Shown here piece by piece: positions 28,477 through 34,396 of a DNA stretch of 35,674 nucleotides (position 1 is the stretch's first letter; every line of letters starts with the position of its first letter). A program made the position numbers and the translations under genes. The notes beneath the pieces were generated by a model. It did no database searches. It had not been told where the DNA came from and saw only the letters and a program-made list of their open reading frames with translations. This stretch comes from an uncultured Clostridia bacterium (GTDB lineage Bacteria > Bacillota > Clostridia > UBA1381), in the NCBI GenBank assembly GCA_947628155.1, contig CANQYQ010000008.1:1-35674 (forward strand), given 5' to 3'.

Positions 28477-29209
28477 CGTGCTGACGCTTTTCCCGGAGAT
28501 GTTCGAGGCGGTACTCGGCGAAAGCATAATCGGACGCGCAAGGGATGCCGGTATAATAGAAACAAATTTTATAAATATACGTGACTATACGAAGAACAAG
28601 CACAGGAAGGTGGACGATACTCCGTACAGCGGCGGCGGGGGCATGCTTATGACGGCGCAGCCGATATACGACGCGTATATGTCGGTTGCCGAGGGCCTTT
28701 CGTATAAGCCGTATACGATTTATATGTCGCCGCAGGGAAAGGTAATGACGCAGGAGACGGTAAAAAAGCTCGCGGCGGATTATGAGCATATCGTTATTTT
28801 ATGCGGTCATTACGAGGGCGTTGACCAGAGGGTGATAGACGAAATCATCGACGCGGAAATATCGATAGGCGATTTTGTGCTTACCGGCGGCGAGATCCCC
28901 GCAATGGCGGTTATTGACGCTGTATCGCGTATGCTGCCGGGTGTGCTCGCGGACGAAGGCTCGTACAGTAATGAATCGCATTTTAACGGACTTTTGGAAT
29001 ATCCGCAGTATACAAAGCCAGCAGAGTGGAACGGACACGGAATACCGGAGATTTTAATAAGCGGGCACCACGCGAAAATTGAGGAATGGAAACGTGAGCA
29101 GTCGCTTGTAAATACACTGAAAAAACGCCCCGATTTGCTTGAAAAGGCGGAATTGACGGAAAAGGACAGGGCGTTTTTGAAACACGCGGTACATGACGGG
29201 GAAATATGA
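28466..29209 (+). CDS. trmD: tRNA (guanine37-N1)-methyltransferase TrmD
   Basis: Methylates G37 of tRNAs to prevent frameshifting. It has 247 aa from the ATG inside the end of rimM. Knot-fold signatures are FDVLTLFPEMFEA at the N terminus, RKVDDTPYSGGGGMLM around residue 50, LCGHYEGVDQRVID and SIGDFVLTGGEIPAM. A TTG two codons earlier (28460) is an alternative start. In most Firmicutes rplS follows trmD; here a MITE-like repeat follows instead and rplS is absent from the window. Confidence 0.96.
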   Translation: MRFDVLTLFPEMFEAVLGESIIGRARDAGIIETNFINIRDYTKNKHRKVDDTPYSGGGGMLMTAQPIYDAYMSVAEGLSYKPYTIYMSPQGKVMTQETVKKLAADYEHIVILCGHYEGVDQRVIDEIIDAEISIGDFVLTGGEIPAMAVIDAVSRMLPGVLADEGSYSNESHFNGLLEYPQYTKPAEWNGHGIPEILISGHHAKIEEWKREQSLVNTLKKRPDLLEKAELTEKDRAFLKHAVHDGEI

Positions 29210-29210
29210 A

Positions 29211-29619
29211 TCTATCTTTATCGCGCAAATGCGTATGGGAAACCCGAACACCGTAGGGGCGGCCATCGGCCGCCTGTGTTCCGTAACCCAATATGGTATA
29301 CGGTGTGCGTTAGCCTCCCTTGTCAAAGGGAGGGGGACCATGCGTAGCATGGTGGAGGGATTCATATTTACAGAAAACCGCATATTGCGGCGATTTGTTG
29401 AAATTGCGGAATCCCCCAGTCAGCTTCGCTGACAGCCCCCTTTGACAAGGGGGGCCTTAGCAGAGCGTTCCCGTGAGTGAAAATCGTATATTGGCACGAT
29501 TGTAGGGGCGAACCGTGTTCGCCCGTGTTCCGTAACACAATATGGTATGCGGCGGGACGTCGAGGGCACCGTCCCCTACAGTGCTCCCCATACGCATTAG
29601 TGCGATAAACATAAATTTA
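29211..29619. mobile_element. Dispersed MITE-like repeat, copy 2
   Basis: Its right end GCGATAAACATAAATTTA (29602-29619) is the terminus shared with copies 1 and 3, and the left end reads TCTATCTTTATCGCGC, a decayed inverse. Internally it carries the same modules as copy 3 in opposite order and strand: GTAGGGGCGGCCATCGGCCGCC, CCTCCCTTGTCAAAGGGAGG, GAAAACCGCATATTGCGGCG, GCAGAGCGTTCCCGTGAG. The ORFs called across it are translated repeat, not genes. No transposase is encoded. It fills the trmD to serine acetyltransferase gap. Confidence 0.88.
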
Positions 29620-33906: not shown

Positions 33907-34362
33907 TAAATTTATGTTTATGCGTGTAAATAGCCTTCCCCTTGAGGGGAAGGGGGACCGCGCAGCGGTGGATGAGGTGTTTAACAAACCATATTGGGTT
34001 ACAGAACACGGGCGGCCGATAGCCGCCCCTACGAAGGCCCCCTTGTCAAAGGAGGCTAACGCTCGCCGTATGCGATTTTCGCTCACGGGAACGCTCTGCT
34101 TGCGCCCCTTGTTAAAGGGGAGAGGGCCAACGAAGTTGGCGAGGGGATTCCGCAATTACAATAAATCGCTGCAATATGCGGTTTTCTGTGAAAATGAATC
34201 CCTCCGTCATTTGCTCCCGACGGTCGCAAATGCCACCTCCCTTTGACAAGGGAGGCTAACACCCGCCGTATACCATATTGGGTTACGGAACACAGGCGGC
34301 CGATGGCCGCCCCTACGGTGTTCGTGTTTCCCATACGCAACCGCGCGATAAACATAAATTTA
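33907..34362. mobile_element. Dispersed MITE-like repeat, copy 3 (complete)
   Basis: A non-coding 456-bp element with terminal inverted repeats: left TAAATTTATGTTTATGCG (33907-33924) and right CGCGATAAACATAAATTTA (34344-34362). Inside are palindromic modules: CCTTCCCCTTGAGGGGAAGG, GGCGGCCGATAGCCGCC, ATTTTCGCTCACGGGAAC, CCTCCCTTTGACAAGGGAGG and GGCGGCCGATGGCCGCC. The 34229-34320 part equals the window start with two mismatches, and most modules recur inverted in copy 2. It separates frr from uppS. The ORFs called in it (33914-34246, 34083-34355) are repeat translations. Confidence 0.9.
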
Positions 34363-34369
34363 TCATGTA

Positions 34370-34396
34370 AGACCGTTTTGCGGCGGTCTGTTTTTT
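34370..34396 (+). terminator. Intrinsic terminator directly upstream of uppS
   Basis: AGACCG (34370-34375), 8-nt loop, CGGTCT (34384-34389), then GTTTTTT. The T run is followed at once by AAGGGG, the uppS ribosome binding site, so the terminator occupies the uppS leader. No promoter fits in the 12 nt between it and the ATG. Confidence 0.75.

Follow-up and report, generated by a model that had tools for sequence, protein, structure and literature searches.

MITE-type elements with exchangeable hairpin modules in an uncultured Clostridia bacterium

The window, by which we mean the whole stretch of 35,674 nucleotides analysed here, carries three copies of an element family of a gut Clostridia genus that is MITE by its structure and by its empty insertion sites. 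We consider it likely that these are non-autonomous MITE-type transposons with exchangeable hairpin modules, mobilised in trans by a TA-targeting DDE transposase and carrying a core derived from REPINs. An original prediction for this DNA had proposed a mobile family of this kind; the inverted unit pair at fixed distance, the link to REPINs and RAYTs in a related genome, the symmetric TA target and the role of the terminal inverted repeat (TIR) in providing stop codons had not been part of it.

The window is an entire contig (G000:C8, 1-35674) that starts inside an element. A terminus common to three copies, and inverted at both ends of the complete one, had been predicted, and both are found: ATAAACATAAATTTA, the right TIR, occupies 114-128, 29605-29619 and 34348-34362, and copy 3 also has the inverted 15-mer TAAATTTATGTTTAT at 33907-33921, giving it perfect 15-nt TIRs. 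Copy 1 is partial because the contig breaks inside the element. For copy 2, predicted at 29211-29619, the right end was correct and the left end was not, its true start being 29207, four bases earlier, where a degenerate left TIR (TGAATCTATCTTTATCG) has as its first triplet the trmD stop codon TGA (29207-29209). The modules of copy 2 are inverted relative to those of copy 3, as had been claimed, with an inverted match of 83% over 285 bp. The copies also lie behind a stop or before a start as described: an ATG stands 23 nt downstream of copy 1, copy 2 overlaps the trmD stop, and copy 3 is placed between frr and uppS. The parts of the three copies are as follows.

33907-34362, no strand: copy 3, complete element of 456 bp; perfect 15-nt TIRs, TIR-bounded in the scan, empty site in the sister species (G004, L068)
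33907-33921, plus strand: left TIR of copy 3 (TAAATTTATGTTTAT)
33936-33977, plus strand: V unit, with stem CTTCCCCTTGAGGGGAAG, stem ACCGC/GCGGT and tail GATGAGG; belongs to end type D, and elements of the sister species have the same end type
34009-34032, minus strand: R unit (GTAGGGGCGGC hairpin) of copy 3
34106-34150, plus strand: U double-hairpin unit of copy 3, first of the inverted pair
34196-34252, minus strand: U double-hairpin unit of copy 3, second of the inverted pair
34285-34316, minus strand: R unit (GTAGGGGCGGC hairpin), belonging to the right end type of copy 3
34348-34362, minus strand: right TIR of copy 3
34370-34389, plus strand: terminator-like hairpin and T-run; in the sister species a hairpin like it stands immediately behind the frr stop, and copy 3 intervenes here
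29207-29619, no strand: copy 2, 413 bp, inverted relative to copy 3; degenerate left TIR overlapping the trmD stop TGA; empty site in the sister species (L068)
29310-29363, plus strand: U unit of copy 2, by sequence and unit class
29409-29458, minus strand: inverted U unit of copy 2, by sequence and unit class
1-128, no strand: copy 1, truncated at the contig end so that only the right part of the element remains, with its right TIR at 114-128

Copy 3 probably lies in the 3' untranslated region of frr, as it separates this gene from the hairpin that adjoins it in the sister species. It folds strongly (z = -7.9 against dinucleotide shuffles); no promoter-like site was found in it, and an Rfam scan of the window matched no family.

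The termini of the family read TAAATTTnnGTTTAT...ATAAACnnAAATTTA. Searched with up to two mismatches, CGATAAACATAAATTTA occurs at 83 places in the 2.46-Mb draft genome to which the window belongs (G000), against one for a reversed-pattern control. There are two main TIR variants, TAAATTTATGTTTAT and TAAATTTTAGTTTAT; the sister species G004 has mostly the latter, and a goat-rumen relative (G003) has TAAATTTTGGTTTA, with about 135 ends. Complete pairs, their TIRs inverted to each other, are present in G000, G004, G003, G001, G002 and G018, and the complete copies are non-coding and about 160-760 bp long. In a family-wide TIR scan, matches outside the genus were single ones only, except in G018, which belongs to another genus. 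Viral contigs with the 17-nt TIR pattern (101 stretches) held no TIR pair within 4 kb and were treated as chance, and degenerate TIR matches inside genes (L177, L184, L189) were likewise set aside as chance. A literature search by keyword and by sequence string found no description of this element family.

The proposed mobility is supported by G004, the closest relative compared, whose flanking genes are 80-86% identical. Its counterparts of copies 2 and 3 are empty, with a frr-uppS gap of 49 nt and a trmD-cysE gap that holds no element. Counting these two, at least eight sites have both flanks present and no element between them. When the outer flanks of G000 elements were mapped on 1.2 Mb of G004, 28 ends were empty and 14 shared, some of the shared ones weakly. 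The insertion target is symmetric around TA. Of 80 ends in G000, 67 have A or G directly before TA and none has C; one position further out, 42 have G and a single one has C. A set of 48 ends from G004 follows the same trend. The bases flanking the TIR mirror each other, with G/T then A/G before TA and the complement after TA. This pattern is consistent with TA being the target and being duplicated as a 2-bp TA; the duplication is suggested by the symmetric context, the empty intergenic sites having diverged too far for it to be read directly.

Across the genome, an ORF starts or ends no more than 300 nt from nearly every element end. Of 196 ends, 43 have the TAA of their TIR tip as the in-frame stop codon for an open frame 90 codons or longer; in the two remaining frames the counts are 9 and 5. 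Genes stopped in this way, where the G004 site is empty, have C-termini differing by -2 to +1 residues from their orthologs; the G004 TrmD, with its own stop, is two residues longer than the TrmD stopped by copy 2. Because the C-termini differ so little, the element appears to sit at the original stop, or within a codon or two of it, and to rebuild it. The base on the right flank is usually a pyrimidine, which a TAA or TAG stop as target would not give.

Within the shell the elements have a constant architecture, an inverted hairpin-unit pair at fixed distance from the TIRs. The simplest elements of G000 and G004 are 229-230 bp long and contain two U units in facing orientation, at about 46-92 and at about 138-182; a scan of TIR-bounded elements gave size classes of 230 and 417 bp, and in elements of 415-420 bp the U pair is present twice. 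A U unit consists of two hairpins, the first with a stem around CCCTTGTCAAAGGG. In the second, the arms change completely and complementarity is kept (ACCGCC/GGCGGT, ACCATGC/GCATGGT, GTCAGC/GCTGAC, GCCAAC/GTTGGC, CATTTGC/GCAAATG and others, in a parse that mis-assigned a few arms). The U pairs of G000 and G004 are inverted double hairpins that lack a GTAG tag; in G003 the place of the core is taken by an inverted pair of GTAG-tagged, REPIN-like hairpins (R units), and G018 has a third type of core pair.

The original prediction would have failed had the modules been mostly independent of the TIRs genome-wide and had relatives shown no empty sites; besides the empty sites described above, the modules largely keep to the TIRs. 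In 1.2 Mb of G004, 14 of 15 core-hairpin matches are inside TIR-bounded elements, and in 400 kb of G003 most R units are within or adjoining TIRs, those outside being near background level. Among 391 genomes of the class, the exact core hairpin was found only in G000, G003 and G371, by a strict 20-mer that misses variants. G371, from a different genus of the same family, has identical U and R units lacking these TIRs. From this occurrence apart from the TIRs in G371, and mostly with them in G004 and G003, we conclude that shell and core are separable over evolution and linked within this genus. Several G371 loci (L319-L331) are intergenic arrays of U and R hairpin units lacking TAAATTT ends.

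The predicted exchange of modules is visible at the ends of the elements. Four end types, A to D, can be distinguished, with the subterminal motifs CGGGGTA, CrCrCTTTTGCA, CTAAGGTCGGGG and GCGTG. Complete G004 elements pair them as AB, BC, AD, AC, CD and AA, covering five of the six possible mixed pairings when end types are set by hand (automatic clustering merged two of them by single linkage). L028 and L030 were aligned with their G004 counterparts. At sites filled in both species (L028, L052 and L010 with L036), the type B end is kept, with a similarity of 0.70-0.93, and the other end differs (0.32-0.45). Such one-end replacement fits recombination or gene conversion between copies, with independent insertion at the same site as a formal alternative.

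The original prediction had also looked to a transposase with matching ends; none was found in the searched stretches and the genomes of the genus, which are incomplete, and the family is for this reason not assignable to an IS family. An IS630-type DDE_3 transposase (PF13358) was detected in none of five genomes of the genus; matches to PF01609 (DDE_Tnp_1), PF00665 (rve) and PF00872 (Transposase_mut) were present, all of them without matching TIRs, and no TIR pairs 0.8-5 kb apart occurred in the fetched stretches. A fragment of an ISAs1-family transposase, also lacking TIRs, lies at a contig end (L341:1393-1773, G000:C173). As for Y1 transposases, three genomes have ordinary IS200, and G003 has two RAYT-like genes, which score 92 bits (L336) and 66 bits (L339) against NCBIfam NF047646, with a cut-off of 80. 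The one below the cut-off (L339:1459-1998, G003:C8) has a GTAG-tagged inverted R pair directly upstream, and this pair has no TIR. No Y1 transposase scored above threshold in G000, and neither G000 nor G371 yielded a RAYT gene; in G004 there are an ordinary IS200 and a fragment.

One rival reading takes the elements for REPINs that a RAYT (HUH tyrosine) transposase mobilises, with TAAATTT ends that are merely conserved flanks and no separate TIR transposase. It would account for the REPIN-like core pairs, for the RAYT-like genes of G003, one of which is preceded by an R pair, and for the failure to find a DDE transposase with matching ends. We nonetheless regard this reading as unlikely, as the TIR is constant where the core varies by species (R pairs in G003, U pairs in G000 and G004, another pair in G018), and the R pair beside the RAYT-like gene has no TIR. 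HUH insertion, as in IS200/IS605, is asymmetric, unlike the target found here, which is symmetric about TA; and in G000 no Y1 transposase passes the threshold despite many identical TIRs.

The elements might instead be old functional RNAs or regulatory parts, such as terminators or mRNA stabilisers, that are under selection and no longer mobile. Sampled ends, however, are more often at empty than at shared sites (28 versus 14), the TIRs are identical across many copies, and copy 3 has no promoter-like site, so that we find this explanation very unlikely, even with the strong folding, the compensatory variation of stems, the placement at gene ends and stop codons, and the conservation of several sites between species in its favour. 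Nested and duplicated modules give many copies an untidy look, as would a random accumulation of unrelated intergenic repeats that form no unit element; fixed TIR-to-core distances and size classes, the confinement of modules to TIR elements and clean empty sites make that explanation scarcely credible.

In the non-autonomous transposon family that we favour, 15-nt TIRs and subterminal arms of about 30 nt form a shell enclosing the inverted hairpin-unit pair, the basal element being 230 bp in G000 and G004 and about 167 bp in G003. A DDE-type, TA-targeting transposase, IS630/Tc1-like in behaviour, would act on the TIRs in trans, after which recombination or gene conversion between copies and tandem duplication of the unit pair, with a period of about 187 bp, would diversify the elements. 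The core pairs would derive from REPIN-like repeats, since the G003 core is a GTAG-tagged inverted pair and a RAYT-like gene has one such pair directly upstream. Since the TIR starts with TAA and thereby ends the open frame, insertions would persist at gene ends, often exactly at the stop codon. More tentatively, and less likely than not, the family may be a two-layer element, in which a TIR shell that targets TA took up REPIN cores and goes on swapping cores and ends. Hairpins born with RAYTs would in that case owe their present spread to a second transposase unrelated to the first, and TIR tips that rebuild stops would make insertion at gene ends cheap for the host. The family would unite in one element two repeat classes usually treated apart, TIR-bounded MITEs and REPIN/RAYT repeats, and would illustrate how a parasite whose tip supplies a stop codon can establish itself at the ends of genes. 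Comparison of sister species, with their shared, empty and end-swapped sites, offers a way to follow the origin of modular repeats.

Several known systems resemble these elements in part. BOX elements of Streptococcus pneumoniae are likewise modular, non-coding, structured, intergenic and MITE-like, of variable length (67-637 bp) and with a varying number of internal modules, and their mobilisation is tied to ISSpn2 (PMC3049150); compared by description, the present elements differ in having constant TIRs around an inverted unit pair, several interchanged end types and no known partner IS. RUP of S. pneumoniae, Correia/NEMIS and ERIC share TA-tipped TIRs, a TA target, high copy number and a mostly intergenic location; RUP is uniform in size and matches IS630-Spn1 (PMC2229807), whereas here size varies and the five genomes of the genus that were searched yielded no IS630 transposase. 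The inverted hairpin-unit core recalls REPINs and GTAG-tagged REPs with their RAYTs (PMC3116915, PMC3733652), the G003 core starting with GTAG and one pair flanking a RAYT-like gene, but here the unit pair is packed inside a TIR shell and the target is a symmetric TA. GTAG REPs have been reported in Proteobacteria, Cyanobacteria, Chloroflexi and the PVC group, with Firmicutes and Clostridia unmentioned (PMC3733652). TIRtrons, or TIRYT, are similar in that RAYT-like genes are associated with TIRs forming repeat families (PMC3733652); there the TIRs flank the gene itself, in contrast to the RAYT-like genes here, which have no TIR elements on either side.

Many TIR copies in G000 are found no more than a few hundred bases from where a contig ends; the family is probably a main reason why this assembly is fragmented, and would explain part of that fragmentation. 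The genomes are incomplete MAGs, and short-read assembly can misjoin repeats. At one G000 element (L178, G000:C18:9661-9943), the left and right flanks map to different G004 contigs, each at an element, which may reflect either a rearrangement through elements or a misassembly or assembly chimera.
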